Source: Fodinisporobacter ferrooxydans (lineage in GTDB: Bacteria > Bacillota > Bacilli > Tumebacillales > MYW30-H2). Taken from it: DNA of 64,000 bases. Both the position numbers and the translations under genes were made by a program. The notes below the pieces were generated by a model, which saw only the letters and a list, made by a program, of their open reading frames with translations, searched no databases and had not been told where the DNA came from. This document shows, piece by piece, positions 41,650-63,283 of the stretch. The stretch's first letter is position 1. Each line of letters begins with the position of its first letter. Location: NCBI RefSeq assembly GCF_022818495.1, contig NZ_CP089291.1:434001-498000 (forward strand). The letters run 5' to 3'.

Positions 41650-43407
41650 TCATACACTTACATGTGATCTCTTTTCATCGGGAGAATAAATATCCATTAT
41701 ATTCCAATGTCCTGTTGTTGGCGTTGGGACATTGAGCATCTGAACATCAATAACAAACGGTTTATTTGACTCAATGGCTTGTTTCAGAGCAGGTTTAAAC
41801 TCTTCCGCAGATTGAATCTTTACCCCATCAACCCCGTACGCTTTTGCAATACTCGCAAAATCCGGTGAATAGGATTTTCCATCTTTCTGAAAAACAGTTC
41901 CATACGTTGTATCGAAATGTGCTTTTTCCAATCCGGCGATTGTACCGTAGGAATTGTTATTCATAACGATCCATATGACAGCTACACTTTCTTCAGCAGC
42001 TGTTGCCAATACGGAAGGATTTTGACCGAAACCGCCGTCACCGACAAGCGAAACAATTACTTTATCCGGTTGTGCAATTTTCGCTCCCAACGCCGCAGAG
42101 GATCCAAATCCCATCGTGGCCAGGCCACCCGGCGTAAAAATAGTACCTGGTTCGTAAACCGGAAATTGTTGTCCAACTCCGTTCTTGTTCCAGCCTACAT
42201 CCGTTGTAATATAAGCATCTCGCGGCAATACCTCGCGCACTTCATGTAAAATTCGTTCCGGTCTCATCGGAAACGATGAATCCTTGATGTGTACTTGATT
42301 CTGCTTTCTAAAATTCTCCTTATAAACAGCAATTTTTTGCTTGAATGGATTGTTTTGCCTGCCTTCTGGAAGAATCTCCTTCGCAACCCTGTTTAACACG
42401 TGCAGTGCCTGCTTTAAATCAACGACCGCTCCGATCTCTACAGGATAATTCCTACCAATTTCATTTGGATCGATATCAATGTGTATTAATTTGGTAGGCG
42501 GAAAATTAAATGTATATTCGGATTCCCAAGAGCTGCAATCCGCTTCGGCGAAACGCGTCCCTAGAGCAAAAATATAATCCGCTTGTCTACATGTATCGTT
42601 GGTAAACTGTGCACCCCAGAATCCGGTCATTCCCAATAGGAATGGATGATCATCGGGCACAGCACCTTTTCCCATGGCACTATGTACAACCGGAATACTC
42701 AGATGGTCAACAAACTCCCTTAATTCTTCCGCTGCATCCGCTATTAAAATTCCTCCACCTACATAAATCAGTGGATTTGTTGCATGAACAAGTCTCTGAA
42801 TGATCGTTTCGGCTGTTTCATCATCAATCGATGGTTTTTGTATCGTTTTCGTATGATGATTCAATCTTTCGAATAAAGCCGTATCTATTTCTTTCGAGAA
42901 AATATCCATTGGTACAGATACTAATACCGGACCTGGCCGTCCGCTTTCCGCCAATTGAAAAGCCTTTTCAATAATTTCAGGAAACAGATCCGGGCGATCT
43001 GCACGCCATGCCCGTTTAACAAATGGACGGTAGATTTCATATTGGGAAGCATCTGCATGCAAGTTAATTTCTTGGTGTGGATGCTTCCCATAATAATGAC
43101 TTGGAATGTCACCGGCAATGACCACCATAGGAATGGAATCCAATGCGGCCGTTGCAACACCCGTAGCAGCATTCGTTAAACCTGGTCCCAAATGTGTTAA
43201 TACTACAGATGTTTGCTTTTTGGCCCTGGCGTACCCATCGGCCGCATGTGCGGCAATTTGCTCATGGCGGGTATTGATGAATTTGATGGAGCTATTCTCC
43301 AAAGCTGCCAATACTGCGATGTTCGTATGTCCACAAAGCCCGAAAATGTGTTCGATACCTCTGTTTTCCAGATACCTTATTAATTGACGCGAAATGAGAT
43401 CTTTCAT
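41650..43407 (-). CDS. Thiamine-diphosphate-dependent enzyme, acetolactate synthase-like
   Basis: This 585-residue enzyme has the three-domain architecture of acetolactate synthase/benzoylformate decarboxylase relatives. The N-terminal PYR domain has the catalytic glutamate in NTRHEQIAAHAADGYARA (near residue 48). The central domain contains PLIYVGGGILIADAAEEL. The C-terminal PP domain has the ThDP motif starting GDGGFGQNPSVLATAAEES and ending in NNNSYG. It is not clearly a biosynthetic IlvB: no small subunit gene lies nearby. It is the first gene after a sigma-54 promoter and leads into the liv genes, so a catabolic carboligase or decarboxylase for the imported compound is likely; substrate unknown. 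Confidence 0.85.
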   Translation of the reverse strand: MKDLISRQLIRYLENRGIEHIFGLCGHTNIAVLAALENSSIKFINTRHEQIAAHAADGYARAKKQTSVVLTHLGPGLTNAATGVATAALDSIPMVVIAGDIPSHYYGKHPHQEINLHADASQYEIYRPFVKRAWRADRPDLFPEIIEKAFQLAESGRPGPVLVSVPMDIFSKEIDTALFERLNHHTKTIQKPSIDDETAETIIQRLVHATNPLIYVGGGILIADAAEELREFVDHLSIPVVHSAMGKGAVPDDHPFLLGMTGFWGAQFTNDTCRQADYIFALGTRFAEADCSSWESEYTFNFPPTKLIHIDIDPNEIGRNYPVEIGAVVDLKQALHVLNRVAKEILPEGRQNNPFKQKIAVYKENFRKQNQVHIKDSSFPMRPERILHEVREVLPRDAYITTDVGWNKNGVGQQFPVYEPGTIFTPGGLATMGFGSSAALGAKIAQPDKVIVSLVGDGGFGQNPSVLATAAEESVAVIWIVMNNNSYGTIAGLEKAHFDTTYGTVFQKDGKSYSPDFASIAKAYGVDGVKIQSAEEFKPALKQAIESNKPFVIDVQMLNVPTPTTGHWNIMDIYSPDEKRSHVSV

Positions 43408-43624
43408 GCATGTTGAGCCTCCTTTAAATTTAAAATGATTGTTCCTTACCTGATTGTTCCGTACCTTCTTGACAAAGCAGATTCAAAAGCTGTTTTATAC
43501 TCCGATCGATTCCCTGTGCCGGCAAATGTTCGTCTTCCCATTTCAGGACAAATCATATGTACCTCACTAACTTCTCCTCCTAATGTGAAAACTCGATAAT
43601 CTGAAAAATCTAATATTTTTAATA

Positions 43625-43641
43625 AGCAAGTATTGTGCCAA
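43625..43641 (-). promoter_or_regulatory. Sigma-54 (-24/-12) promoter of the TPP-enzyme/liv unit
   Basis: The minus strand reads TTGGCACAATACTTGCT, matching the TGGCAC-N5-TTGCW consensus with the essential GG and GC doublets. It is identical at 15 of 17 bases to the promoter at 54011-54027. Transcription would start near 43613 and give a leader of about 205 bases before the TPP-enzyme gene. Confidence 0.85.
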
Positions 43642-43681: not shown

Positions 43682-43725
43682 GTTCAAATTTTGAACTAAA
43701 CACGTTTGCATAAAGTTCATTTTAT
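43682..43725. promoter_or_regulatory. Candidate activator site upstream of the TPP-unit sigma-54 promoter
   Basis: GTTCAAATTTTGAAC (43682-43696) is a 7-1-7 palindrome about 41 bp upstream of the -24 box, followed 33 bp on (start to start) by GTTCATTTTAT (43715-43725). The same pair with the same 33-bp offset occurs upstream of the CoA-transferase promoter. Confidence 0.6.
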
Positions 43726-43795
43726 TTATTCGGGAGAAATTGCCGTTCTAACTTTGCCATTCGATCTGAAAAAACGAATTTGATTTCTTCACATT

Positions 43796-44614
43796 CTATC
43801 CCCGTGGATGAGTATCCAGATAGTCCTTTGCAATTTGCAAGCAATGCCGCGCAAATTCCTCATAACCCAGTTCTTGCGTGCGCTTGGCGTGTGGGATCTC
43901 CAAGGAATAGGGAATCTCAGGTATCCGATTCAGGATGCCGGCAACATCAATGCCGCCCTCGCCCAAATACAGTCGCTCCTCGCGTGCAGTATGGATCAAA
44001 CCTTCTTTTGTGGTCGGAATCTCTCTGGGCGCATCGCAGACATGCGCAAAGTGGAGCCATTCCCACGGCACATCGTCCAGCTCCTCAAGCCTGACGTGCG
44101 AGCGGTTGAAATGAAGAGTATCGATTATGATGCCGCCATTTTCACGATTGGCTGTGCGGACAATATCTAGCGCTTCTTGGAGTGTCGCCAGATCGTACCA
44201 AGTGATGAATTCCAAGTCCATCGTTAGGCCGAACGGTTTGGCCATATCACAAAGTTCGGAAAAGCAATCAATCACGAAATTGCGATCATTGGTCGAAGCG
44301 GTAGTAAGAACATGGCGCCCGCCCAATTCAGCAGCGACTTCCATGGCGGGCAGATAGATTTTCGGATCGAGTCCATCGTAGATGCGGACCATTTCGATGT
44401 CGAGCAGCTTGAGGCCCGTCTCGGCAAGCGCAGCTTTCGTTTGCCGCAGCATCACCTTGTCCTCGGCCAATGGATATTGGGGTTCGTTGATCGTTCCTAA
44501 CCCAATGGGACGAAAGCTGACGAAATCATAGCCGGCTCGTGCGGCGATATACGTCATCTCTGGTGGTGTACAGCCAAGCACCGTAAGGTGAGCCAGGGAA
44601 AATTTCCTTGCCAT
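43796..44614 (-). CDS. Sugar phosphate isomerase/epimerase-like TIM-barrel protein
   Basis: This 272-residue protein of the xylose-isomerase-like TIM barrel superfamily starts at ATG 44614 after GGAGGAAAACAAG. Likely metal ligands appear at the ends of strands: Glu in LTMDLEFITWYD, Asp in GIIIDTLHFNRSH, His in WLHFAHVCDAPRE and Glu in YSLEIPHAKR. The superfamily includes isomerases, epimerases, inosose dehydratase and 3-dehydroshikimate dehydratase (AsbF/QuiC types). The neighbouring shikimate dehydrogenase gene makes the last an option, but the sequence does not prove it. It probably ends the transcription unit beginning with the acyl-CoA dehydrogenase at 47733. Confidence 0.8.
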   Translation of the reverse strand: MARKFSLAHLTVLGCTPPEMTYIAARAGYDFVSFRPIGLGTINEPQYPLAEDKVMLRQTKAALAETGLKLLDIEMVRIYDGLDPKIYLPAMEVAAELGGRHVLTTASTNDRNFVIDCFSELCDMAKPFGLTMDLEFITWYDLATLQEALDIVRTANRENGGIIIDTLHFNRSHVRLEELDDVPWEWLHFAHVCDAPREIPTTKEGLIHTAREERLYLGEGGIDVAGILNRIPEIPYSLEIPHAKRTQELGYEEFARHCLQIAKDYLDTHPRG

Positions 44615-44711
44615 TTTCTTGTTTTCCTCCAATCGTCCGATATTGTTACACAGGAGATTTTAAGCAGTTTCGAAATTCTTAATATCCTTGATAATTAAGT
44701 TTTCTTTTTTT

Positions 44712-45611
44712 TCATTTGATGATTGCTTCCTTCTGAAATATTTGCTCCTTGACATATTCAACAGGCATTTCTTGCCCGGTCCATATTTCAAAAGCCTTAG
44801 CACCTTGCCAGAGCACCATTCCTAATCCGTTAATCGTCTTACAGCCAACTGTTTCTGCTTGCGCTAACAATTTTGTTTTGCGCGGTGTGTATATAACATC
44901 CGATACGATTAACTCTGGACGTAACCAAGAAGTATCAGAGATAAGGCTTTGACCCTCGAATGGCTTCATCCCAATTCCTGTTGCATTTATCAAGATGTCA
45001 CTGTCAGCGATTTCTTTTTTCAATCTATCTCGATCAGCAAGATCATAAACGTTCGCATTACAAGTCGTATCCTTTACTTGTTCATTGATGATCGCAGCAT
45101 TTTTTACCGCTCGAGGAAAGAAATCATCCTTTCGATTGAAAATGGATATTTCCGCAACTCCATCGAATGCTGCTTGAATCGCAATTGCAGTTGCTGCACC
45201 ACCAGCACCCAGGAGTGTTATTTTCTTACCGATAAAATATACACCTGCCTCGATTAATCCGCGCATAAACCCAATACCATCTGTCATGTGACCAATTAAT
45301 TTGCCATTTTCATTTACTACTGTATTTACTGCACCTGCAAACTGAGCGACTTCTGATAACTCATCCAAAAGGGGCATAATTTTAATTTTGTTCGGCATGG
45401 ATACATTAAAGCCACGTAAATTTAGAGCACGAATTCCATTCACAACATCTTTCAGTTGATCATTCCCAACCTCGAATGCCAAATACGCGTAATTAAGTCC
45501 CAATTTTCGAAAAGCCATATTATGCATGGCCGGAGATATCGAGTGGCCGCTTGGTGCAGCAAGCAGTCCAATTAATTTCGTTCTGCCATCAATACGTCCA
45601 AGATCAGACAT
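44712..45611 (-). CDS. Shikimate/quinate dehydrogenase (AroE/YdiB family)
   Basis: This 299-residue NAD(P)-dependent dehydrogenase has the substrate-binding block AAPSGHSISPAMHNMAFRKL, the catalytic lysine in NVSMPNKIKIMP (near residue 73), TDGIGFMRGL, and the Rossmann motif LLGAGGAATAIAIQAAF. The C-terminal block NGLGMVLWQGAKAFEIWTG is typical. Biosynthetic AroE and catabolic quinate/shikimate dehydrogenases cannot be separated by eye; its length and place in a catabolic array with an aroQ remnant favour the catabolic role, converting shikimate or quinate to the 3-dehydro compound. Confidence 0.87.
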   Translation of the reverse strand: MSDLGRIDGRTKLIGLLAAPSGHSISPAMHNMAFRKLGLNYAYLAFEVGNDQLKDVVNGIRALNLRGFNVSMPNKIKIMPLLDELSEVAQFAGAVNTVVNENGKLIGHMTDGIGFMRGLIEAGVYFIGKKITLLGAGGAATAIAIQAAFDGVAEISIFNRKDDFFPRAVKNAAIINEQVKDTTCNANVYDLADRDRLKKEIADSDILINATGIGMKPFEGQSLISDTSWLRPELIVSDVIYTPRKTKLLAQAETVGCKTINGLGMVLWQGAKAFEIWTGQEMPVEYVKEQIFQKEAIIK

Positions 45612-45635
45612 TTGTTTTGCATCCTCTCACTATAA

Positions 45636-45713
45636 TTACATCCTTGCAATAGCCCGCAAAGCCATCTCATATCCATAGGAGCCAAAGCCCGAAATTTGGC
45701 CGATCGCCAATGC
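45636..45713 (-). pseudogene. 3'-terminal remnant of aroQ (type II 3-dehydroquinate dehydratase)
   Basis: The minus strand encodes ALAIGQISGFGSYGYEMALR then AIARM and a stop. This matches the C-terminal end of AroQ, where GQISGFG and the following helix are strongly conserved. Intact AroQ has about 145 residues, so roughly 120 codons are missing. The stop codon of the next gene upstream (TAG at 45714-45716) is in the same frame, marking the junction of a deletion. The remnant lies directly before the shikimate/quinate dehydrogenase gene. Confidence 0.75.
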
Positions 45714-46535
45714 CTAGAGATGCTCCAAATAGCGCTCCTTGATGACCGCAAGAACCTCATCCCCAGGCTGATCCCAGATAGCCTGGTTAAAAATCTCGAC
45801 CTCAATCGGCCCTTGGTATCCTGCTGCATCCAATGCTTTTCGAATCCGGCGAAGCTCGATCACACCATCCCCCATCATTCCTCTTCCCAATAAGAAATGT
45901 GAAAATGGAACAACCCAATCGGACACATGAAAACCTAGAATGCGCTCTCCTGCTAATGCAATTTGATGGTATAAGTCGGGATCCCACCATACATGAAAGA
46001 CGTCCACTACCACGCCGACTTCATCTGGCCGATAGGATTTTGCCAAATCATTCGCTTGCGCCAATGTCACTACTACCGACCTTTCCGCCGCATACATGGG
46101 ATGAAGCGGTTCAATCCCTAACTTTACCCCGTATGATTTTGCATAAGGAACCAGTTGTTCAATTCCTTCTGCTACACATTTCCTTGCACAATCAATGTCT
46201 CGATCAGGTATCCCGCCACCTACGAGAACTAACACTTCTGCCTCAAGTTCTGCTGCTTCCTCGATTGCACGTCGATTTTCGTCCAATCTCTTTTGCCGCT
46301 CGGCAGCAGAGACAGTTGGAAAATACCCCCCGGCAATCATGCTGGATACCCGCAAACCTGCATCCCGAACCAACTGTCTGCTACCCTTAAGCCCGATTTC
46401 AGCAATCTTGTTGCGCCATAAGCCGATCCAGGGAATCCCTGCACGAACACAGCCTTCCACAGCCTCCCGAAGATTCCACCTTTGTGTCGTTGCCTGGTTC
46501 AAACATAACCGTTCGAATGATTCAAGCTGTTCCAT
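45714..46535 (-). CDS. Sugar phosphate isomerase/epimerase-like TIM-barrel protein
   Basis: This 273-residue xylose-isomerase-like TIM barrel opens with LCLNQATTQRWNLREAVEGC. Candidate metal ligands are Glu in LGIEPLHPMYA, Asp in VGVVVDVFHVWWDPD, His in ILGFHVSDWVVP and Glu in PIEVEIFNQ. It is only distantly similar to the protein at 43796-44614. Close relatives are common in catabolic clusters but few are characterised. Its stop abuts the aroQ remnant in frame; the C-terminal [15 protein letters not shown]-type ending (here [16 protein letters not shown]) looks natural, so the protein is probably intact. Confidence 0.8.
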   Translation of the reverse strand: MEQLESFERLCLNQATTQRWNLREAVEGCVRAGIPWIGLWRNKIAEIGLKGSRQLVRDAGLRVSSMIAGGYFPTVSAAERQKRLDENRRAIEEAAELEAEVLVLVGGGIPDRDIDCARKCVAEGIEQLVPYAKSYGVKLGIEPLHPMYAAERSVVVTLAQANDLAKSYRPDEVGVVVDVFHVWWDPDLYHQIALAGERILGFHVSDWVVPFSHFLLGRGMMGDGVIELRRIRKALDAAGYQGPIEVEIFNQAIWDQPGDEVLAVIKERYLEHL

Positions 46536-46584
46536 CTTCTTTCCTCCCGTAAGAAATCGGCAGAACTTAAACTTATTTGATCCA

Positions 46585-47733
46585 TCATTTCATCAGGATG
46601 CTGCCTATAATCATACGCTGCACCTGGTTCGTACCATCTACAATTTGAAAAATTTTAGCATCCCGCATTAACCGTTCAACAGGATATTCTTTTATATAGC
46701 CGTAGCCCCCAAAAATTTGTACGGCATCTGTTGTTACTTTCATAGCCACATCCGTAGCCAAACATTTCGACATGGAAACCATCGCGGTGGTTTCCTTCGA
46801 GATGACCGGATATTCCTGATCCACACGCCGATTCGTTTCACGAACCAAACAACGGGCCGCTTCCAATTGCATCGCACAATCTGCCAACATAAAACGGATT
46901 GCTTGAAAATCGCCGATTCGTTTGTTAAACTGCTTGCGTTCTTTCGCGTATTGTATGGCAAAATCCAAAGCACATTGTCCAACACCAAGCGCCATGGCAG
47001 CAGCCCCCCATGAACGCAGCATGCTGGTTCCTATTTCCGAAAGCATTCTCCAGCCATCGCCCTCTTGGCCAATTAACGCATCATCAGCAACCCAGCAGTC
47101 TTCCAGGATGACATCTCCTGTAGAACTGCCATGTAATCCCATTTTATTTTCTATTTTTCCAAAATGCAGCCCTGGGCTATCTTTGTGTACTAAAAAGGCA
47201 GAAATTTCATCCGGATTCGTCTTCGCAAACACGAGATAATATTCTGCAACTTGTGACAAGGTAACAAAAATCTTCGTTCCATTTAAAATGTATCCTCCTT
47301 GCAGAGCCTTCTTCGCAGATGTACTGATTGCCCGTGCATCAGATCCCGCATGCGATTCCGTTAAACAAAAAGCACAAAGCTTATGACCACTGCTTAGATT
47401 CGCATAGAATTTATCTAATTGGTCCGGTCGTGCCATCAATGACACCATGCGAATCACAGAATTGGTTGATAACATTGTCGTGCCCATGGACGCTAAGCCT
47501 TTGCTTAATTCTTCGATCACCATCGCGAGCAACGAACTATTCGCTTCAATTCCACCGTATTTTTCCGGCAGACACATCGTGAGGAGCCCATTTTCTCCTA
47601 AAACTTTGACCAAATCGTGCGGAAATTCATCTGTACGATCCACTTCGGCAGCCCTTGGCATAATTTTTTCTTTTGTTATTTTCTTTACCACCTGCATTAT
47701 TTCTTGTTGTTCTAAAGTTTGATCGATTACCAT
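46585..47733 (-). CDS. Acyl-CoA dehydrogenase with Asp at the usual catalytic Glu position
   Basis: This 382-residue FAD enzyme has the family blocks CLTESHAGSDARA, FVTLSQVAEYYLVFA, GDFQAIRFMLADCAMQ and FGGYGYIKEYPVERLMRDAK. The catalytic base of most members is the Glu in YEGTNQIQ; here the motif reads VDGTNQVQ, with Asp. The alternative base position used by isovaleryl-CoA-type enzymes, in the block GTSMLRSWGAAAM, also lacks Glu. It heads a unit with its own sigma-54 promoter and should pass electrons to EtfAB. Activity may be low, altered or on an unusual substrate. Confidence 0.87.
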   Translation of the reverse strand: MVIDQTLEQQEIMQVVKKITKEKIMPRAAEVDRTDEFPHDLVKVLGENGLLTMCLPEKYGGIEANSSLLAMVIEELSKGLASMGTTMLSTNSVIRMVSLMARPDQLDKFYANLSSGHKLCAFCLTESHAGSDARAISTSAKKALQGGYILNGTKIFVTLSQVAEYYLVFAKTNPDEISAFLVHKDSPGLHFGKIENKMGLHGSSTGDVILEDCWVADDALIGQEGDGWRMLSEIGTSMLRSWGAAAMALGVGQCALDFAIQYAKERKQFNKRIGDFQAIRFMLADCAMQLEAARCLVRETNRRVDQEYPVISKETTAMVSMSKCLATDVAMKVTTDAVQIFGGYGYIKEYPVERLMRDAKIFQIVDGTNQVQRMIIGSILMK

Positions 47734-47908
47734 TTTCCAATCCCCCTGTCACTTGATTTGCCAAGATGCGTCCCATTTAAATAGACCTTTTGCTCCTTAG
47801 CTGCTGATTCCTTGATCGCGTGAATTACCTTTTTACAATTCTGCAGCCTTTATGAAAGCCATTACACTTTTGTTTCTTCACCTCCTGTAATTCCTCATAT
47901 CTATTACT

Positions 47909-47924
47909 AGCAAAAAGGATGCCA
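47909..47924 (-). promoter_or_regulatory. Sigma-54 promoter of the acyl-CoA dehydrogenase/aroE unit
   Basis: The minus strand reads TGGCATCCTTTTTGCT, matching TGGCAY-N5-TTGCW with both invariant doublets. The inferred start near 47897 gives a leader of about 165 bases to the gene at 47733. The upstream element shared by the other two promoters is not seen here. Confidence 0.7.
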
Positions 47925-48010
47925 ATCAATAAGCTAAGCAAAATCAATGTTTTTATATCAATTAATTTTTCCGGGTATTTGTACTCGTGTCCGTTTGAAA
48001 AAGAGTTTTG

Positions 48011-49444
48011 TTATTCAGATAATCGATAGACAATCATTTTCGTTTCTGTCATATCTTCGACCGCATAGCGAGGGCCTTCACGTCCAATTCCACTGTTTTT
48101 CACGCCGCCATAAGGCCAATGATCCAGTCTGAAATTGGAAGTGCCATTGATCACCACACCGCCCACTTCAAGGGCGTGAGCTACTTTATAGGCTAAATCC
48201 ATTTGGTTTGTAAAAAGCCCAGCCTGCAATCCGAATGATGAATCATTTGTCGCCTCGATGGCCTCTTCAATCGTCTCATAGGGAAGAATGCTGACGATCG
48301 GACCGAACACTTCTTCACAAACAACGTTGCTTTTCTTAGGCGGGTTTAATAGAATCGTCGGTTCCACTGTCGCCCCATATTTTTTGCCGCCGGATAGTAA
48401 TGTTGCGCCCTGGCTGACCGCTTCTGCAATCCAATCCAAGATCCGCTGCGCTTCCGTTTCGTTCACTAAACATCCGATATCCGTGTTTGGCAGTAACGGA
48501 TCACCGATTTTCAATTGCGCTATTTCATGTTTTAGCAATTCCGTGAATGTGCTTACAATCGATGCATGGACATAGATTCGTTGAACGGAAATACAACTTT
48601 GTCCCGAATTGCTAAATCCGGTTCTTGCACACATCTGGGCAGCACGCGCCAAATCGGCGTCTTCATGGACAATCGTCGCGGCATTCCCGCCCAGTTCCAG
48701 CAGTACTTTTTTGATTCCTGCCAAAGAACAGATATTTTTGCTGGCCACGACTCCGCCAGTAAAGGAAATTACATTGACACGGTCATCTTTTACAATTTGC
48801 TGCACGACTTCCCTTCCACCATAAATCAAGTTGACAGCATTCGCAGGAAATCCGGCTTGCAGCAGTAATTTTATTAATTCTGCGGCGATAAACGGCGTCT
48901 GTGAAGCTGGCTTGAAAATGACACTGTTGCCTGCTGCGAACGCCGGACCAATCTTGTGACAAACGAGATTGAGCGGGGCATTAAACGGCGTAATAGCTGC
49001 AACAACGCCTACCGGAACACGAAAGGTTGCAGCAATCGCTCTTGTTCCTCTTTCTGAAGGATCACCGGGCAACGTTTCACCGATTAATCTCTTTGCTTCT
49101 TCACCTGACAGTTCGAGTGTTTCGATGGAACGGGACACTTCGTCAAGTGTATTTTTTAAAGGTTTTCCCAACTCAAGGGAAATCAGCTTGGCGAATCTTT
49201 CTTTTTCAACATTTAATAGTGCGGCGGCTTTTTTTAAAATTTTTGCCCGTTCATGAGACGGGATATTCGCAATATCTTTTTTGGCAGCGTAAGTTGCTGC
49301 CAATGCATGTTCAACATCGCTTGGCGTTGCATCACATCGCTCACCGATCACTTCCCCGGTATACGGATTGTACACGGAACCCCCATCGTTGCATGGGCGG
49401 ATCCATTCGCCATTTATAAAAGATACTGCTTTCATTTTCTCCAA
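48011..49444 (-). CDS. NAD(P)-dependent aldehyde dehydrogenase
   Basis: This 477-residue aldehyde dehydrogenase has the catalytic Cys in FSNSGQSCISVQRIY, the base Glu in KVLLELGGNAATIV, and cofactor block ISFTGGVVASKNI. Its frame opens at TTG 49444, eight bases after GAGGTG; ATG 49435 (MKAVSFINGEW) is an alternative. It is a paralogue of the aldehyde dehydrogenase in the ectoine cluster. It is the last gene of the unit starting at the CoA-transferase and would oxidise an aldehyde made by the neighbouring alcohol dehydrogenase. Confidence 0.88.
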   Translation of the reverse strand: MEKMKAVSFINGEWIRPCNDGGSVYNPYTGEVIGERCDATPSDVEHALAATYAAKKDIANIPSHERAKILKKAAALLNVEKERFAKLISLELGKPLKNTLDEVSRSIETLELSGEEAKRLIGETLPGDPSERGTRAIAATFRVPVGVVAAITPFNAPLNLVCHKIGPAFAAGNSVIFKPASQTPFIAAELIKLLLQAGFPANAVNLIYGGREVVQQIVKDDRVNVISFTGGVVASKNICSLAGIKKVLLELGGNAATIVHEDADLARAAQMCARTGFSNSGQSCISVQRIYVHASIVSTFTELLKHEIAQLKIGDPLLPNTDIGCLVNETEAQRILDWIAEAVSQGATLLSGGKKYGATVEPTILLNPPKKSNVVCEEVFGPIVSILPYETIEEAIEATNDSSFGLQAGLFTNQMDLAYKVAHALEVGGVVINGTSNFRLDHWPYGGVKNSGIGREGPRYAVEDMTETKMIVYRLSE

Positions 49445-49568
49445 CTTGCTTTCACCTCTGGCATCTAATTTTTCAGTCCTTGTTTTAAACGTTTCGTATC
49501 AATCGGTCATTCATTCATTCATTTTTTATAAATAGAATTGCGGAACTCTAAATGAATCGACGTTACGT

Positions 49569-50609
49569 TCACTCGATGCGGAACAGCACCTTCCCAGCCT
49601 GCTTTTCTTTCATGAGTTCAAACCCTCGATTCGCCTGGTCAAGTCCAAAAACATGGTCGCCAACCATCGGCTCGATTCGAATCGTATCGTTTTCCAACCA
49701 CCGGATGGCAGTCTCATAATGTAAGGGCAGGCTGCCAACAACGCCTTTAATCGTCAGGTTCTGACGTACGATCTGTACCAGCGGATTTATCCTGGCTTCT
49801 GTTGCAAAACCCAAGAGAAAAACCTTGCCTGCACCATGTGCCATCAAAATAGCCTGTTCTACGGCTCCGGTCGTCCCTCCGGCTTCAAAGACAACATCTG
49901 CGCCAATCCCGTCAGTTAAATCTTTCACTAATTTATACGCATCCGTATTCCCGAGATCAACCACATAGTCGGCGCCCAAATTCTTTGCAATCTGCAGACG
50001 CTTCTCATCGGAAGAAGTGCCGATCATGATAACTTTTGCAGCCCCGGCAGCCTTCGCAGCTTGAAGTGTGAACAGACCGAGCGGACCAGGCCCCACGATG
50101 ACAACTGTATCATCCACAGCGACCGGATTTGTCTCCATGGCCTGCGCAACAATGGAAATCGGCTCTAGAAAAGCGCCTTGATCGAAAGAAATACTTTGCG
50201 GCAAAACGTGAGTCCCCTTCGCCGGGAATGCGATATATTCGGCAAAAGTCCCGTCAAAACTAATGCCCAAATGGTCCCAGTTCGGACACAAATTAATATA
50301 TCCCCTGCGGCAATAATGACACTGGCCGCACCCTAGCAATGCCTCCAGCCCGACACGGTCTCCAGGTTTCAGACCGCGTACGTTTCCACCCACCTCGACG
50401 ACTTCACCAGCGCCTTCATGGCCAAGAATGATGGGCGGTTTTACCGGATAGCGTCCCGTATACCTCCAATCGGCCAATAGAATGTCCGTTCCGCATATTC
50501 CAGTGGACTTTATCTTTACCAGAACTTCATCCGATTTTATTTTCGGTATCGGAACATCAATAACTTCGACAAAACCTGGTTCCGGACGTGTCTTAACTAC
50601 TGCTTTCAT
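49569..50609 (-). CDS. Zinc-dependent medium-chain alcohol dehydrogenase
   Basis: This 346-residue enzyme of the threonine/sorbitol dehydrogenase-like MDR family has catalytic zinc ligands in STGICGTDILLADW and LGHEGAGEV, a four-cysteine structural zinc lobe CGQCHYCRRGYINLC, and the nucleotide-binding motif VVIVGPGPLGLFTLQAAKAA. It probably oxidises a secondary alcohol or polyol. It sits 82 bases after the SDR gene and 124 bases before the aldehyde dehydrogenase gene in the same direction. Confidence 0.88.
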   Translation of the reverse strand: MKAVVKTRPEPGFVEVIDVPIPKIKSDEVLVKIKSTGICGTDILLADWRYTGRYPVKPPIILGHEGAGEVVEVGGNVRGLKPGDRVGLEALLGCGQCHYCRRGYINLCPNWDHLGISFDGTFAEYIAFPAKGTHVLPQSISFDQGAFLEPISIVAQAMETNPVAVDDTVVIVGPGPLGLFTLQAAKAAGAAKVIMIGTSSDEKRLQIAKNLGADYVVDLGNTDAYKLVKDLTDGIGADVVFEAGGTTGAVEQAILMAHGAGKVFLLGFATEARINPLVQIVRQNLTIKGVVGSLPLHYETAIRWLENDTIRIEPMVGDHVFGLDQANRGFELMKEKQAGKVLFRIE

Positions 50610-50691
50610 TTACAATCACTCCTAGATATAGAATTCAATTCTTGATCATTTGCTTCACAATCGACTCAATGCCATCGATAGCACATCACGC

Positions 50692-51438
50692 CTAATAAAC
50701 GGAACGACCGCCACTTATGTCATAGCACTGTCCGGTGGTGAATGCAGCCTCATCAGACACAAGATAACTTACCAAGCCGGCTACCTCTTCCCGTTTGCCC
50801 AGCCGTCCCATCGGGATTTTTGCCAACAAGGACTGGAAATACTCGTCAGTCATCTCTTTGACCATATTTCCTTCTATCATAGTCGGTGAAATACAGTTTA
50901 CAGTTACACCTGTTTTCGCAATCTCTTTCCCCAACGACTTCGTAAAAGCGATCACCCCAGCCTTCGAACTTGCGTATGGCGCCAACATCGGGTTGCCTTC
51001 TTTTCCGGCGACAGAGGCCATATTCACGATCCGGCCATATCCCCGCTTGATCATCCCATCCAAAACAGCCTGACAACACAAGAAAGTCCCTTTTAGGTTG
51101 ATATCGAAAACCCTGTCCCAATCCTCTTCCGAAATCTCGCTAACGGGAGCGGAAGGTCCGAGAATCCCGGCGATATTTGCGAGAATATCCACCCTTCCAA
51201 ATTCCGACTCTGCTTTTCGTATCATGGCTTGGACTTCGTTTCGCGAAGTGACGTCAACACGCTGGGGCAATACTTGAAAGCCGGCGTTTGCAATGGCTCC
51301 GGCAACTGTTTCGGCAGCGCCAGGATTAATATCCGCTACTAGCACTTGGGCACCCTCTCTGGCAAGCCTCCAGCAAACCGCCTCGCCAATGCCACTGCCG
51401 GCACCCGTAACAACAGCCACTTGTCTCGATCGTTTCAT
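50692..51438 (-). CDS. SDR-family oxidoreductase (FabG-like)
   Basis: This 248-residue short-chain dehydrogenase has the cofactor motif TGAGSGIGEAV, NIAGILG, the catalytic serine in VNMASVAGKEGN and YASSK with the catalytic Tyr and Lys. The start is ATG 51438 (MKRSRQ) behind GGGGGTG; the 13-residue longer frame is unlikely. In this setting it probably acts on a 3-hydroxyacyl-CoA or a cyclic alcohol, by inference. Confidence 0.88.
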   Translation of the reverse strand: MKRSRQVAVVTGAGSGIGEAVCWRLAREGAQVLVADINPGAAETVAGAIANAGFQVLPQRVDVTSRNEVQAMIRKAESEFGRVDILANIAGILGPSAPVSEISEEDWDRVFDINLKGTFLCCQAVLDGMIKRGYGRIVNMASVAGKEGNPMLAPYASSKAGVIAFTKSLGKEIAKTGVTVNCISPTMIEGNMVKEMTDEYFQSLLAKIPMGRLGKREEVAGLVSYLVSDEAAFTTGQCYDISGGRSVY

Positions 51439-51502
51439 TCTTTTCACCCCCGACCAGTAAACATTAGAACCATACAAAGCAATTGAATCATCTAAGCCGT
51501 TC

Positions 51503-52657
51503 CTAACTCCACTGCAAGCCCCCCTTCAACACTTCCCTGGCAATGACAATTTGCTGTATCTGATTTGTTCCTTCGTAAATCTGAGTCAGCTTGGCGTCAC
51601 GGAAATACCGTTCCACTGCATAGTCCTTGCAATAACCATACCCGCCGTGGATCTGAATCGCGTTCGTTGTGTGTTTCATTGCCGCTTCTGTTGCAAACCA
51701 TTTGGCAATCGATGATTCCCGCGTAAACGGTTTTCCGCTATCCTTCAGATATGCTGCCCGATAGGTGAGCAGGCTCGCTGCATCAAGATCGGCGGCCATC
51801 TGGGCAATAAAGGCTTGAATCAACTGGAATTGACTGATTTTTTGTCCAAATTGCACTCTGCTTTCGGCATATGCGACGCTGTCCTCCAAAGCAGCCTGGA
51901 TGAGACCTATGGCCAGACCCGCCACTTCAATCCGGCCGCTGTCCAACGAGTGCAGAGCTATCTTGATTCCTTGCCCTTCAGCGCCCAGCATGTTGCTTTT
52001 CGGTATTCGGCAATCCGTAAATAACAATTCAGAAACCGGATTCCCTCTCTGACCCATTTTCTTCTCTTTTTTGCCTACTCGAAAGCCGGGGGTTCCTTTT
52101 TCAACAATAAAAGCACTGATGCCTTTTGACTTTTTGCTCGCATCCGTAACTGCAAACACTATAGTAAAGTCAGCCAATGGTCCTAACGTGATAAATGTCT
52201 TGCTGCCATTTAATACGTAGGAATCCTCATCTAATCGGGCCTGTGTTTTTATGCCGGTTGCATCTGACCCGGCACCGCTCTCTGTTAAAGCGAAAGAACC
52301 GATGATTTCGCCTCGTGCCATCGCAGGCATGTACGTTTCCTTTTGTTCTTTGGTGCCATAATGATACATACAGAAAAGATGATGCTTAATTGAGGAACAA
52401 ATGTTTGCCACTGTTGCGGAAACCCGGCCCAACTCAATGCTTGCCAAAACAGAGGAAACGGAATCAGCTCCGGCTCCCCCATATTCTTCCGGAAAATTTA
52501 CCGCGAGAAGCCCCAAGTCTCCGGCCTGTTTGAAGATCTCCTTGGGAAATTCATCCGTCTCATCCATTTCCGCCGCTCTCGGCTTTACTGCCTTCTCGGC
52601 AAAACTTCTGACCATTTGACGCATCATCTTTTGTTCTTCAGAGAATCCAAATTCCAT
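51503..52657 (-). CDS. Acyl-CoA dehydrogenase
   Basis: This 384-residue FAD enzyme has ALTESGAGSDATGIKT, FITLGPLADFTIVFA, HGGYGYCKDYAVERYFRDA and the catalytic Glu in IYEGTNQIQ. It thus has the standard base, unlike the paralogue at 46585. Its ATG overlaps the CoA-transferase stop in TAATG, so the two are translationally coupled, and the CoA-transferase likely makes its substrate. Confidence 0.92.
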   Translation of the reverse strand: MEFGFSEEQKMMRQMVRSFAEKAVKPRAAEMDETDEFPKEIFKQAGDLGLLAVNFPEEYGGAGADSVSSVLASIELGRVSATVANICSSIKHHLFCMYHYGTKEQKETYMPAMARGEIIGSFALTESGAGSDATGIKTQARLDEDSYVLNGSKTFITLGPLADFTIVFAVTDASKKSKGISAFIVEKGTPGFRVGKKEKKMGQRGNPVSELLFTDCRIPKSNMLGAEGQGIKIALHSLDSGRIEVAGLAIGLIQAALEDSVAYAESRVQFGQKISQFQLIQAFIAQMAADLDAASLLTYRAAYLKDSGKPFTRESSIAKWFATEAAMKHTTNAIQIHGGYGYCKDYAVERYFRDAKLTQIYEGTNQIQQIVIAREVLKGGLQWS

Positions 52658-53853
52658 TAAATTACACCCTTTTCCGCAAGGTCTTTTATTTTTTTATCCG
52701 AGTACTGTAAAAGTCCTCGATAAATCTCGTCATTATGCTGTCCCAAGGTCGGTGGAGGAGTTTCAATCGTTCCGGGTGTCAACGAAAGTTTGGGCGTAAC
52801 TCCCGAAACCTTGAATCTGCCTGCTATCGGATGTTCAATTTCAACAGCCATTTCCCTGGCAATAACATGTGGATCCTCAACCAGTTTGTCTACACTATTT
52901 ATCGGTGCGCAAGTGACTCCAGCCTCATTCAGTACAAACACAACTTCCGCCACCGTCCGGTCGGCGACCCATGCCTGTGTTATTGCATCAACTTCTTCCA
53001 CATTGGCAACTCTTAATGGGGCCGAAGCGAATCGAGGATCGTCAACCAGCTCCGGTCGCCCCATCACAGCAACAAACCGTTGCCAAAGAGTATTTGATGA
53101 TACTCCAATGACTACATATCCGTCCTTAGCCATATAGCTGTTGTATGGGGCAACACCAGGGATACGGCTTCCGTTTCTTGTTGTAACCTTTCCTAGCGCA
53201 GTATAATTTGGGATTACGTTTTCCAAAACAGCAATTATCCCGTCTAATAGAGCAGCATCAACATGCTGACCCAACCCGGTCTGTTCGCGGTAATATAACG
53301 CCGTTAAAGTTCCATATGCGGCAAAGAGGCCGCCCAAAAAGTCGCCAAGTGCATTGCCGGTCCGCATCGGCGGGCCTCCTTGCTCACCTGTCAGACTCAT
53401 TAATCCACCCACTGCCTGTGCAATGATGTCCAACCCTGGCCTGTTGGCATAGGGCCCGCTTTGCCCAAACCCAGAAACTGATGTCATAATAATCCCTGGA
53501 TGAATCTCTTTTAATTGGCTGTAGCCTATATTCCATTTATTCATCGTTCCTGGGCGGTTATTTTCAATAACAATGTCTGAAATTTTGGCGAGATCCCTGA
53601 ATATTTCCTGGCCTTCCGGTTTTCGCAGATCCAATGTAATGCTTTTCTTATTCCGGTTGGCAGCGAGGAAGCAAGACCCCTCACCATGAATCAATGGAGC
53701 AAAATAGTGAGAATCATCCCCAATGCGAGGGAGCTCAATATGTAGAACTTCCGCACCCATATCTGCTAACAACATTTCTGCATAGGGACCGGCCAACATT
53801 CTGGTTGCCCCCAGTACCCGAATCCCTGATAGCGCCTTTGGCACGATGCTCAT
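52657..53853 (-). CDS. Class III (CaiB/BaiF) CoA-transferase
   Basis: Class III CoA-transferases move CoA between organic acids through a mixed anhydride on an aspartate. The 398-residue product has the family opening LSGIRVLGATRMLAGPYAEM, LDLRKPEGQEIFRDL, and the catalytic Asp in RPGLDIIAQAVGGLMSLTG (near residue 165). It is the first gene after a consensus sigma-54 promoter and should activate the pathway acid for the coupled acyl-CoA dehydrogenase. Confidence 0.9.
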   Translation of the reverse strand: MSIVPKALSGIRVLGATRMLAGPYAEMLLADMGAEVLHIELPRIGDDSHYFAPLIHGEGSCFLAANRNKKSITLDLRKPEGQEIFRDLAKISDIVIENNRPGTMNKWNIGYSQLKEIHPGIIMTSVSGFGQSGPYANRPGLDIIAQAVGGLMSLTGEQGGPPMRTGNALGDFLGGLFAAYGTLTALYYREQTGLGQHVDAALLDGIIAVLENVIPNYTALGKVTTRNGSRIPGVAPYNSYMAKDGYVVIGVSSNTLWQRFVAVMGRPELVDDPRFASAPLRVANVEEVDAITQAWVADRTVAEVVFVLNEAGVTCAPINSVDKLVEDPHVIAREMAVEIEHPIAGRFKVSGVTPKLSLTPGTIETPPPTLGQHNDEIYRGLLQYSDKKIKDLAEKGVI

Positions 53854-54010
53854 CTCCTTACGTAGTCACTTGCTCGGCATGTACCGTTATTGTTTTCATT
53901 GATTTTTCACATTTCTCTCAAGAATACGCTTTAACTGTTTGATATTTTTTCGCGTGATCTATTTCCTCCCATCGCAAAAAAGCAATAATTGAAATCTTAC
54001 ATACTCTATA

Positions 54011-54027
54011 TGCAAGGATTGTGCCAA
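54011..54027 (-). promoter_or_regulatory. Sigma-54 promoter of the CoA-transferase unit
   Basis: The minus strand reads TTGGCACAATCCTTGCA, a perfect match to TGGCAC-N5-TTGCA. The inferred start near 53999 gives a leader of about 145 bases before the CoA-transferase gene. Confidence 0.9.
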
Positions 54028-54068
54028 AGAATCAACACACTTTGTAGCAGTGTTTTCTCTATTGTTTC

Positions 54069-54112
54069 GTACAAATTTTAAACAACATGTGTTTCACTTC
54101 GGTTCATTTTAT
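54069..54112. promoter_or_regulatory. Candidate activator site upstream of the CoA-transferase promoter
   Basis: GTACAAATTTTAAAC (54069-54083) lies about 42 bp upstream of the -24 box, and GTTCATTTTAT (54102-54112) follows at a 33-bp offset. The same arrangement is found at 43682-43725. AAAC...GTTT half-sites also occur between the two motifs at both loci. Confidence 0.6.
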
Positions 54113-54123
54113 AAACACAACAA

Positions 54124-54307
54124 TTTATCCAATAGCTAAAGTTCCTAGATATATTTCCTACAGGGATAAGTCTCACTAACTGCTAAAGCAGTAAGTTCGG
54201 CTTTATCCAATAGCTAAGCGCACACTAAATACTCCCGCTTCTGCAAGCGGGAGATACGTGCGGGTCGAGTTCCTGGATACGCCCAAAAGTGGGGGTTCTT
54301 GACTCAA
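54124..54307. mobile_element. Possible orphan end of an IS200/IS605-type element
   Basis: TTTATCCAATAGCTAA occurs at 54124-54139 and again at 54202-54217. Between and after them are a small stem (ACTGC/GCAGT, 54179-54192) and a perfect 9-bp stem with a 4-base loop, CTCCCGCTT and AAGCGGGAG (54232-54253). The segment ends in TTGACTCAA (54299-54307). A stable hairpin near a TCAA-like cleavage site recalls right ends of IS200/IS605 elements, which also carry guide RNAs for TnpB. No tnpA or tnpB frame is present, so at most a relic. Recognition is by general pattern, not alignment. Confidence 0.35.
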
Positions 54308-54403: not shown

Positions 54404-55750
54404 TTAAAAAAGAAAATCTATATTTTTATCCATATGCTTAACGTCTTGTAAAATCTTCTTTACCTCCTGTTCCCCTAAAATCGGAGTACAGTTGTCGATA
54501 AACTTTGCTGCCAATTGCTCGTCGCCCATAGGCTTTGCAGGTTCTCCCAATGGATTGTCCACAAAATGCCGGAATCGTTTCCCATCCACCATTTCGAGTT
54601 CGACTCTGGCCGACCGCTTTCGGGGATAGATCCGATCCGCTTCTTCATCAACGTATATTTCGGTTGCACGACAAATCTCCCAGAGCCGTTCCGGAGCATA
54701 TTGCGGTTGGAAAACATGCACGTGGATGCGGTCAAACAAAAGCGCAGCGGCGGCGGCATACGGGAGACTCATTTGCGCATCCAGCAGGTTTTTGCATTGC
54801 TTATGATGATGCGCGGCTGCTGTTTGATATACGCCAATTTTGATCTTTGCCACTTGATCTGCTTGGATTGGATAGAGGCGCTTGATTTCTTGAATCGCAT
54901 CAACCACAGCATGAAGATGTCGGCAGCACGGATAGGGTTTAAAGTACACTTCCATAATTGAAAAACTCGAAGCGAGATTCTGCAGCAAATGTTCAGTAGA
55001 AAACTCTCCTCCGGCAAATGCCTGGAAAAAACCGTTTTTCCCTTCAAATACGCGATCGGGTCCTGTCATTCCTCGCAACGCCAAATCAGCAGCAAGGATT
55101 CCATCACGGGCAGCCTGTCCAGGGTGAAGCCTTTTGACTTCCGACCCTGATCCGAGAAATGCAAAAATCCCTCCACAAAAGCTTCCTGCAATCCCGAACG
55201 CCTGTTGAATCTGCGCAACGGTTGCACCGTTCAAGAATGATGCGGCCGCTGCGGCTCCAAAAATCCCGGCAACAGGCGTATTGTGAAAACCACGGTTTCT
55301 CGAGGCAGGATGCATGGCGGAAGAAATCCGCAAACAGATATCATAACCGGCAACTACGGCGGCAATCCATTGCTGCGGCGTTGCTTTCACATGCCGGGCT
55401 GCCGCAAGTACAGCGGGTATTACAACCGCTCCGGGATGGATGGAGCCTTGTGTGTGACCATCGTCAAAATCCAGACAATGGGCATTCGTTCCATTCAGGA
55501 ATGCCGAGTTTGTTTTCGATAAACCTTTTTCAAATCCGATTGTCCGGAACTCTCCTTCCCCCTCAGTTTCTAAAAGATACGCATATAACAACCGGCTTAC
55601 TTCCGTTTGCGACCCAGTGACCGCTGCGCACAAATAATCGAGCAGCACCCTTTTCACTTGATGTATAACCGGAGACGGCAATTGTATCCTATGAAACATA
55701 TCAACGTGTTCCGCAAGAATTTTGGTCAAATCCAGATCGATTCTACTCAT
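54404..55750 (-). CDS. MmgE/PrpD family protein
   Basis: This 448-residue protein belongs to the family of 2-methylcitrate dehydratase (PrpD) and cis-aconitate decarboxylase. It has the family blocks NGTNAHCLDFDDGHTQGSIH, PGAVVIPAVLAAARH, AGYDICLRISSAMHPA, and KPYPCCRHLHAVVDAIQEI. The HCLDFDD and CCRHLH regions contain the expected active-site residues. Substrates of most members are unknown. It is adjacent to the PrpR-type regulator on the same strand and separated from the CoA-transferase unit by 550 bases; it could be a lyase or dehydratase of the same pathway. Confidence 0.87.
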   Translation of the reverse strand: MSRIDLDLTKILAEHVDMFHRIQLPSPVIHQVKRVLLDYLCAAVTGSQTEVSRLLYAYLLETEGEGEFRTIGFEKGLSKTNSAFLNGTNAHCLDFDDGHTQGSIHPGAVVIPAVLAAARHVKATPQQWIAAVVAGYDICLRISSAMHPASRNRGFHNTPVAGIFGAAAAASFLNGATVAQIQQAFGIAGSFCGGIFAFLGSGSEVKRLHPGQAARDGILAADLALRGMTGPDRVFEGKNGFFQAFAGGEFSTEHLLQNLASSFSIMEVYFKPYPCCRHLHAVVDAIQEIKRLYPIQADQVAKIKIGVYQTAAAHHHKQCKNLLDAQMSLPYAAAAALLFDRIHVHVFQPQYAPERLWEICRATEIYVDEEADRIYPRKRSARVELEMVDGKRFRHFVDNPLGEPAKPMGDEQLAAKFIDNCTPILGEQEVKKILQDVKHMDKNIDFLF

Positions 55751-55906
55751 GCGCTTTCCCTTTCCTCAGGTTTCACCCGAATCAATAAACAAGATCTGTG
55801 TCATACATAACGGCGAATTCTACTCAGATGCCCTGTTTGCTTATTCAATAAAAAAACCGTCCGAGAAAAAATCGCCCAAGTCACTGTGGCCAACTCAGTT
55901 CAGACA

Positions 55907-57823
55907 TCATTGGAATTCTTCCGTAGTGCTCAGCTTTTTCCACAATGTCGTACGGCTGATTCCCAAACTTTCAGCAACTTGACGGCGATTCTGCTCATAC
56001 CGGTTCAGCATTTGCATAATAATCTGTTTTTCCATATCTTCCATTGTCCCTATTTTGATCATCAACTGATCTTCGAAAACGGATTCGCTATCAGCCGGAG
56101 GCTCAACAAATTCGGTCTCATTTAAAACTTCCCGAATAAAATGGGATTCCTCTGTAAAACTTTGAATGCTTAACCGGTAACGTTCCACAATATTTTCAAG
56201 TTCTCTGATATTCCCTGGCCAGAAATACGAAAGAAAGAAATGTTTCATTTTCTCAGAAAGTGTAGCCCAGCTATAGGGCACACCTTTTTTTTCTAAAAAA
56301 CTATCGACAATTACCGGGATATCTTCCCTTCGCTCCCTGAGAGGCGGCAGTTCAAGGCGAAGAACGCTCAGACGAAAAAATAAATCGGAACGAAATTCGC
56401 CCTTTTTAACAAGGTGCCATAAATTTCTGTTGGTCGCTGCAACAATCCGAATATCCACAGGAATCACCCTGTCTCCGCCTACCCGCATGACTTCCTTCTC
56501 CTGCACGACTCGCAACAACCGAGCCTGGATCATCGGGGAGATTTCGCCGATTTCATCCAAAAAAATCGTTCCGCCGTTTGCCATTTCAAACAATCCCATC
56601 CGGCCGCCTTTTTTGGCTCCGGTAAAAGCTCCTTCCGAATACCCGAACAATTCACTCTCCAACAATGATTCAGGAAGTGCAGCACAATTAATCGCTACAA
56701 AAGCCCCCTCTTTCCTTTTACTGGAATTATGGATGCCTTGTGCGATAAGTTCTTTTCCCGTACCGCTCTCGCCATTAATAAGAATTGTTGAATCTGTTTG
56801 AGCGAAAAAACTCGCACGTTGAATCATATCGTTCATTTTTTCACTCACATACCGGATGTCGCGAAAATGAAATCTGGCAAGCAGTCCCTTTGCATGCAGT
56901 TCGCGGCGAATCTGGTTTTCCAAATGTTGAATCTTGCTGATTTCGCGGCAAGTAATGACTGTCCCGACTTTTTTCGATTCGACCTGAACCGGTTCATATG
57001 TGACAATCAAATCCTCTGTTGTAATCGTATTGCTGCCGGTATTGAGCTCTTCCCGATTCAGCAAATACTGCAGTTTGGGATGCGCCACTTCCTGAAATTT
57101 GCTCCCGATCACCAATGATGCGCTGATTCCAAACAGTTTTTCCGCAGCCGGATTAAACGTCTCAATCTGTCCATGCTCGCCGACCAGCAAGATCGCTTCT
57201 TCTGATACATGTATCACCGCATTCAGGCGTTCCGCTTTTTCTCTCGCAGCAATTCGGTAACGTGCGATTTCCGCGGCACGAATAAATGATCGTTTGATCG
57301 TTCGTTCACTGGTAGCAATATGCATTCCTTTCATGCCATATTGCCGAACGAGCGTTTGTGCGCCAACTCCCCCTCCAACGACGACATCTAACCCCAGATC
57401 GGCGGCGACCTGAATTTGTTTCATCAGATCTTCCCAATTTCGATACGGAAGTTGAACGACCTCAAAACCAACCGAGTCCAACATTAAATCCATTCTGTAA
57501 GGAAATGCATCTTCCGGATATGTTAGAAAGCCAATTCGTTCTCCCAGTTTTTTAGCCCGCAGAAACGCCTGCATCACGTCAAAGTCATTATTGTCACAAT
57601 AGACGATCGGCAAATCGACCATTGTTGCGATGGCTTGTGCTGTGCCGGCACGGCTGATAACGACTTCATATCCGCCATTTGCAACGAATTCGGCTACTTT
57701 TTTCGCCGCACTCATCATCGTATCTTCTATGATTGTGATTGGATACTCCAGCTCTTCAGCCAGTTTGCGAATGGATGCTGTCATTTCCGGATAGGGTGAA
57801 GTCATTATGATTTTATAATTCAT
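55907..57823 (-). CDS. Sigma-54-dependent activator with PrpR-type sensor domain
   Basis: This 638-residue enhancer-binding protein has an N-terminal PrpR-type sensor domain (about residues 1-185), a PAS domain (about 200-300, VSEEAILLVGEHGQIETFNP), a AAA+ sigma-54 activation domain and a Fis-type helix-turn-helix (NRRQVAESLGISRTTLWKKL). The AAA+ domain shows Walker A NGESGTGKELIAQG, the sigma-54 contact loop GAFTGAKKGG and Walker B GTIFLDEIGEI. Start ATG 57823 sits ten bases after AGGAGG. The sensor of PrpR proteins binds small acids; its ligand here is unknown. Three sigma-54 promoters within 14 kb are its obvious targets. Confidence 0.93.
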   Translation of the reverse strand: MNYKIIMTSPYPEMTASIRKLAEELEYPITIIEDTMMSAAKKVAEFVANGGYEVVISRAGTAQAIATMVDLPIVYCDNNDFDVMQAFLRAKKLGERIGFLTYPEDAFPYRMDLMLDSVGFEVVQLPYRNWEDLMKQIQVAADLGLDVVVGGGVGAQTLVRQYGMKGMHIATSERTIKRSFIRAAEIARYRIAAREKAERLNAVIHVSEEAILLVGEHGQIETFNPAAEKLFGISASLVIGSKFQEVAHPKLQYLLNREELNTGSNTITTEDLIVTYEPVQVESKKVGTVITCREISKIQHLENQIRRELHAKGLLARFHFRDIRYVSEKMNDMIQRASFFAQTDSTILINGESGTGKELIAQGIHNSSKRKEGAFVAINCAALPESLLESELFGYSEGAFTGAKKGGRMGLFEMANGGTIFLDEIGEISPMIQARLLRVVQEKEVMRVGGDRVIPVDIRIVAATNRNLWHLVKKGEFRSDLFFRLSVLRLELPPLRERREDIPVIVDSFLEKKGVPYSWATLSEKMKHFFLSYFWPGNIRELENIVERYRLSIQSFTEESHFIREVLNETEFVEPPADSESVFEDQLMIKIGTMEDMEKQIIMQMLNRYEQNRRQVAESLGISRTTLWKKLSTTEEFQ

Positions 57824-57875
57824 AGGAAACATTCCTCCTAACAGAAGAAAAACGTTCTTATGGGCTCTCGATAAA

Positions 57876-60047: not shown

Positions 60048-60136
60048 GTAGTTTCACCCATCCTATTTACTGTGTGAAGTTCTAAAAACCGCAGTAGTCC
60101 CATCGTTTCCTTTCTATCAACTGGTTGCCAGATCTA

Positions 60137-61111: not shown

Positions 61112-61124
61112 AGTCATTTCCTCC

Positions 61125-61892: not shown

Positions 61893-61988
61893 TTCCATTC
61901 CCTCCCAAAACAAGTGTATATCAATTTTCCATTATTTCCTGAACACACTTCAAAGTTCTGAACATACAGCAAACTTCAGACAAATATC

Positions 61989-63170: not shown

Positions 63171-63283
63171 GCGTTTTACCCGCTCCTCGTAAAGCTTGAC
63201 CGATGGGATTTCTCTTTGTTTTTATTTTGAAACTATTTTCTACCATTTGCAACTCTGCTGATGACTTGCCGATTCATAGATAT

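Follow-up and report, generated by a model that had tools for sequence, protein, structure and literature searches.

The upstream activating sequence (UAS) of the NifA/FhlA type has the form TGT-N10-ACA. In the Clostridiales, UAS motifs have been described for 39 orthologous groups of Fis-type sigma-54 activators, fifteen of which have the motif TGT-N10-12-ACA (PMC6615313). The same study lists PrpR_N among the sensor domains of these activators and describes two groups, XcgR and YctR, that control bcd-etfAB and caiB operons. Here we analyzed a 64,000-nucleotide stretch of the Fodinisporobacter ferrooxydans genome (contig NZ_CP089291.1, positions 434,001 to 498,000), which we call the window. 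Within it, two sigma-54 promoters, P1 and P3, share a two-part upstream element, and a gene for a PrpR-like sigma-54 activator lies nearby. We propose that this element is very probably a UAS for two dimers of the adjacent activator (55907-57832), which would drive a regulon of P1, P3 and a further promoter, P4.

A paired dyad upstream of three promoters

On the plus strand, GTTCAAATTTTGAAC lies at 43682-43696 and GTACAAATTTTAAAC at 54069-54083, and each is followed by GTTCATTTTAT, at 43715 and 54102, with a start-to-start offset of exactly 33 bp at both loci. We found that a single 15-bp dyad, GTTyA-N5-TrAAC, accounts for both parts; its two copies stand 33 bp apart centre to centre, or about three helical turns. 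In the coding direction, P1 reads ATAAATAAAATGAAC, 18 bp, GTTCAAAATTTGAAC, 41 bp and TGGCAC, and P3 reads GTTTATAAAATGAAC, 18 bp, GTTTAAAATTTGTAC, 42 bp and TGGCAC. If the start of the -24 hexamer is taken as -26, the dyad centres fall near -75 and -108. The features are as follows.

43625..43640, minus strand: P1 sigma-54 promoter TGGCACAATACTTGCT (-24/-12), perfect consensus with 0 mismatches, upstream of the thiamine pyrophosphate (TPP)-enzyme and ABC-transporter genes
43682..43696, minus strand: P1 proximal predicted activator site GTTCAAAATTTGAAC, a perfect 7-bp dyad 41 bp upstream of the -24 hexamer
43715..43729, minus strand: P1 distal predicted activator site ATAAATAAAATGAAC, with one good half-site, 33 bp from the proximal site centre to centre
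54011..54026, minus strand: P3 sigma-54 promoter TGGCACAATCCTTGCA, perfect consensus with 0 mismatches, upstream of the CaiB and acyl-CoA dehydrogenase genes
54069..54083, minus strand: P3 proximal predicted activator site GTTTAAAATTTGTAC, 42 bp upstream of the -24 hexamer
54102..54116, minus strand: P3 distal predicted activator site GTTTATAAAATGAAC, 33 bp from the proximal site

These positions agree with the original prediction, which had placed the first part about 41 to 42 bp upstream of the -24 box at both loci and the second at exactly 33 bp; it had not mentioned that the first dyad recurs as the second part. P1 and P3 are the only perfect matches to TGGCAC-N5-TTGCW within the window, and their reported identity at 15 of 17 bases was reproduced when they were compared as 17-mers. 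The 47.9-kb promoter, said to lack the element, indeed has no such pair upstream. This promoter, P2, is sigma-54-like (TGGCATCCTTTTTGCT, 47924..47909, minus strand, locus L066) and either answers to another activator or is no promoter. Another activator gene lies about 2.6 kb from a near-identical core, TGGCATCCTTGTTGCT, at genome 262226..262211.

We found the same pair at P4, 4.9 kb past the end of the window (genome 502937..502922, minus strand), which has a perfect -24/-12 element. Its dyads, GTTCAATAAAAAAAC and GTTCTAAAGTTGAAC, are again exactly 33 bp apart, and promoter and pair together span L104:4922-5049 (genome 502922-503049). Compared with P1 and P3, the proximal site stands 22-23 bp farther out from its promoter, a shift of about two turns.

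Counts of single dyads carried little information. Within the window, the first dyad had 8 matches at up to 3 mismatches against 6.7 expected, which is not above chance, and the second had 7 against 2.9, a slight excess. Loose single-site patterns were no commoner genome-wide than their reversed controls, and we concluded from this that only the pair carries signal. The promoter pattern TGGCAY-N5-TTGCW had 42 sites genome-wide, compared with 5 for its reversed control. We then scored 47 sigma-54-like promoters in loci fetched from this genome, the genome-wide work being done by pattern searches. The matrix was built from the four P1 and P3 sites only and ignored the five middle bases; the pass threshold was the score reached by 1% of dinucleotide shuffles, a test that replaced our initial p-values from a Gumbel fit. 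Three of the 47 promoters passed: P1 and P3, which had trained the matrix, and the held-out P4, which ranked third. None of the 44 other sigma-54-like promoters of this genome exceeded the threshold. One weak candidate, at genome 266277..266262 (L064), fell below it once the middle bases were ignored. When the loose pair pattern was searched without a promoter, we obtained 8 rows in this genome (P1, P3, P4 and five rows at four other places) and 5 control hits; the five additional rows look like chance. The original prediction had asked whether the motif is common in unrelated regions; for the pair, we found that it is not, as judged by its absence at the 44 other promoters.

The activator, its orthologues and rival explanations

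The activator gene has the following features.

55907..57832, minus strand: activator gene with the order PrpR_N, PAS, sigma-54 AAA+ and Fis-type helix-turn-helix (HTH; recognition helix ISRTTLWKKL), read from Pfam domains and the translation

The Pfam matches are PF00158 (5.9e-68), HTH_8 (3.4e-11) and PrpR_N, PF06506 (6.2e-30). The AAA+ domain with its GAFTGA and Walker A (GESGTGKE) motifs, both intact in the translation, together with the HTH identifies the product as a sigma-54 enhancer-binding protein, and the genome encodes one sigma-54 (a single PF04552 match, 1.3e-58). Because its scores lie below both PrpR equivalog cut-offs (404.6 versus 499.2 bits for TIGR02329 and 388 versus 703 for NF011953), we consider the activator PrpR-like and not PrpR.

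To follow the element through related genomes, as the original prediction had suggested, we searched 399 genomes of the class with a strict pattern consisting of the dyad pair plus a sigma-54 promoter. Only two genomes contained it, with 5 hits: this one (2) and G122 (3). The reversed-pattern control gave 0 hits in the same 399 genomes. G122, which belongs to another family of the class, also encodes the activator's closest orthologue (60% identity). At E < 1e-150, orthologues were present in 3 of the 399 genomes, the third being G041 (53%). In the surroundings of this orthologue in G122, strong sigma-54 promoters have pairs at 30 bp, which lie before a CaiB operon (L058:9858), before enoyl-CoA hydratase and TIM-barrel genes (L058:5136) and at divergent promoters before an Fe-S oxidoreductase gene (L058:573/704). 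A second G122 contig (C15, L143:10000-13600) has two more promoters with the element: one at L143:10100, and one with a triple site, three tandem dyads at -144, -123 and -99, that precedes an acyl-CoA dehydrogenase gene of the P4 type. The G122 sites precede relatives of the genes found here: the CaiB operon and genes for TIM-barrel protein, aldehyde dehydrogenase, Fe-S oxidoreductase and P4-type acyl-CoA dehydrogenase.

We also found 9 further orthologues (42-49% identity) across the phylum; the full orthologue set covered 13 genomes beyond this one, at 37-60% identity to the activator. Searching named genomes with the activator protein alone recovered only two distant Spirochaetaceae relatives. 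The recognition helix fits [IV]SR[TS]TLWK[KR][LI] in 12 of the 12 readable orthologues, in the forms ISRTTLWKKL, VSRTTLWKKL, ISRSTLWKKL, ISRTTLWKRL and VSRTTLWKKI; the thirteenth (L126) has an internal stop and no readable helix. Near these orthologues, 18 of 36 sigma-54-like promoters scored above threshold, compared with 0.36 expected from shuffles, and the passing promoters came from 12 of the 13 genomes. The difference from the 0 of 44 other promoters in this genome was significant (Fisher p = 2.6e-8), as was that from promoters near homologues with a different recognition helix, of which 1 of 17 passed, barely (Fisher p = 0.002). Both tests treat promoters as independent and so overstate the significance, since sites are identical in G402 and G448 and are shared between the divergent promoters of L058. 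Together with P4, which heads the apparent operon of the activator itself, the co-occurrence of the pair with the closest orthologue and its recurrence near diverged orthologues with the same kind of helix support the suggestion that these are binding sites of the adjacent activator, as does its absence or near absence elsewhere.

A separate observation concerns genome G006, in which a PrpR_N homologue with the helix ISRATLWRKL lies near a promoter at L057:9821 (minus strand) with different repeated dyads, resembling TTTCA-N4-TGAAA. This suggests that the motif changes along with the recognition helix.

Besides the non-independence of hits, several points count against assigning the element to the adjacent activator. 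G041, with its 53% orthologue, is missed by the strict pattern, its pair being weaker and spaced at 23 bp, and G716, another orthologue genome, gave no promoter to score. The distal site is imperfect at P4 and has just one good half at P1. Finally, the genome has 24 PF00158 matches, about 16 of them canonical-looking activators, and another of these could bind the same site if its HTH is similar.

The last point leads to the most serious rival, that the dyads are sites of another of the genome's roughly 16 sigma-54 activators and not of the adjacent gene. The number of candidates and the fact that Fis-type HTHs can share similar specificities speak for it, but the sites track the orthologues of this gene across the 399 genomes and the phylum, none of the three target promoters is farther than about 15 kb from the activator gene, and the pair occurs at no other sigma-54-like promoter scored in this genome. 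We consider this explanation improbable. Still less probable is an unrelated dimeric regulator, for example of the IclR or TetR type, that co-regulates these catabolic promoters and has the dyads as its operators. Many operators do have the shape of a 15-bp dyad, an IclR-type gene adjoins one orthologue-linked promoter, and the window has a putative IclR-like fragment at 36174-36680, assigned by recognition only; yet among the searched genomes a homologue of that IclR-type protein turned up only for G041, whereas the motif was found near 12 of the 13 orthologues. An activating sequence also agrees with the position upstream of the -24 element and with the spacing by helical turns. Chance or recent duplication, in which the upstream regions would be copies of each other and the shared element meaningless, can practically be dismissed: the cluster does contain paralogous genes (L104, for example, has copies of the genes for TPP enzyme, TIM-barrel protein and aldehyde dehydrogenase), but the sequences between dyads and promoters at P1 and P3 are unalike by eye, the threshold is reached by just 1% of shuffles, and the same pair at P4 and in other genera, including held-out genomes, contradicts it.

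We next considered the geometry of the sites. Although 18-40 bp was allowed, the spacings of passing pairs fell only at 20-24 or 30-33 bp, which corresponds to two or three turns of the helix. With G402 and G448 counted once, 19 spacings gave p of about 5e-5 in a Rayleigh test for an assumed period, some of the promoters being related and so not fully independent. The consensus over 35 sites read symmetrically has GTT (positions 1-3) and AAC (13-15) at 1.5-1.7 bits each, an A at position 5 with 1.1 bits and A or T at the centre; most of the 35 sites were chosen by the matrix, which biases this logo towards it. In the linker between the dyads, AAAC occurs at P1 (43704-43707), P3 (54091-54094) and P4 (L104:5025-5028), where a half-site two turns away from the proximal dyad would fall. 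It was not seen in the G122 promoters and may be chance in AT-rich DNA. It is possible, if doubtful, that the PrpR_N-PAS activator family follows a strict helical grammar in which dyads are paired at two or three turns and, at the three promoters of this genome with their 33-bp arrangement, an additional AAAC half-site occupies the two-turn position. If so, site geometry would set the number of dimers that assemble on the DNA, and evolution would have moved one and the same activator between architectures of two and three turns.

The predicted regulon and how it may be activated

The genes downstream of the three promoters are as follows.

41650..43407, minus strand: TPP enzyme, first gene after P1, acetolactate-synthase-like and below family cut-offs
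52657..53853, minus strand: CaiB-type CoA-transferase, first gene after P3, followed by acyl-CoA dehydrogenase, short-chain dehydrogenase/reductase (SDR), Zn-alcohol dehydrogenase and aldehyde dehydrogenase
54404..63979, minus strand: downstream part of the apparent P4 operon, judged by gene order and short gaps; the 3-hydroxyacyl-CoA dehydrogenase gene runs off the window, followed by thiolase, EtfB, EtfA, Fe-S oxidoreductase, the activator and MmgE/PrpD
54232..54253, minus strand: terminator-like hairpin after MmgE/PrpD that separates the P4 operon from P3, the longest stem in a scan that overall had no excess over shuffles

Branched-chain-type ABC transporter genes follow the TPP enzyme (36.7-41.5 kb). 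Between P1 and the start of the TPP enzyme, a leader of about 200 nt (window 43408-43613) has, by eye, a ribosome-binding-site-like AGGAGG and a possible short open reading frame. Just upstream of the predicted activator sites of P3, a direct repeat, TTTATCCAATAGCTAA, occurs at window 54124-54139 and 54202-54217.

An acyl-CoA dehydrogenase gene lies directly downstream of P4, its ATG about 30 bp after the -12 box. The next genes on the same strand are those for an ADP-forming acyl-CoA synthetase, enoyl-CoA hydratase, thioesterase, 3-hydroxyacyl-CoA dehydrogenase, thiolase, EtfB and EtfA, names that come from reading the translations and not from a family search. After EtfA come an Fe-S oxidoreductase, which had no more than weak family matches, the activator and MmgE/PrpD. 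Gene order and short gaps suggest that these genes form one operon. Given the short gaps, the activator gene probably lies within the operon that it activates, which would make it autoregulatory, and positive feedback is likely. A second, paralogous gene set (TPP enzyme, TIM-barrel, CaiB-type, aldehyde dehydrogenase) at L104:5892-13531 resembles window 41.6-53.9 kb, and we found no paired element there.

According to our model, each 15-bp dyad would bind one dimer through the Fis-type HTH of the activator. The three-turn spacing would place both dimers on one face of the DNA upstream of the -24 element, where they could seed an AAA+ hexamer. This hexamer would contact sigma-54 through the GAFTGA loop and remodel the closed complex into an open complex, presumably gated by the PrpR_N and PAS domains in response to a metabolite or redox state. 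The regulon would then combine uptake from P1 (TPP enzyme and ABC transporter) with CoA activation and oxidation from P3 and P4 and with electron transfer (EtfBA and Fe-S oxidoreductase). A regulon that joins these functions makes a carboxylic acid, its CoA ester or the redox state the probable signal.

Comparison with described systems

For a PrpR_N-PAS sigma-54 activator, the analysis predicts a binding motif and a regulon of three operons, and makes autoregulation likely. This activator type is present in several families of the phylum and is linked here to acyl-CoA catabolism; we found no described site for it in the literature. The conserved two- and three-turn spacings also provide a simple natural test set for the phasing of activator dimers on DNA.

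Like enterobacterial PrpR, the activator of propionate catabolism, the protein combines PrpR_N, an AAA+ sigma-54 domain and a Fis-type HTH, and an MmgE/PrpD-family gene belongs to its target cluster. Unlike PrpR, it scores below both equivalog cut-offs and has a PAS domain. Its target cluster looks like one for CoA-ester oxidation and not for the methylcitrate cycle. The element resembles the NifA/FhlA-type UAS in being a dyad upstream of sigma-54 promoters for a Fis-type HTH, whose binding here is predicted, and differs from it in its half-site, GTTyA, and its shorter spacer.

The kind of gene switch is well known, and the pairing of this motif with this activator seems undescribed in a comparison with the consensus given for fifteen of the 39 Clostridiales groups (PMC6615313); an identical motif may exist among the published logos. 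As in those groups, a short UAS lies upstream of -24/-12 promoters, and the target operons mostly adjoin the activator gene. In contrast to the fifteen groups described with TGT-N10-12-ACA (PMC6615313), the dyad here, GTTyA-N5-TrAAC, comes in pairs two or three turns apart and is associated with a PrpR_N-PAS activator.

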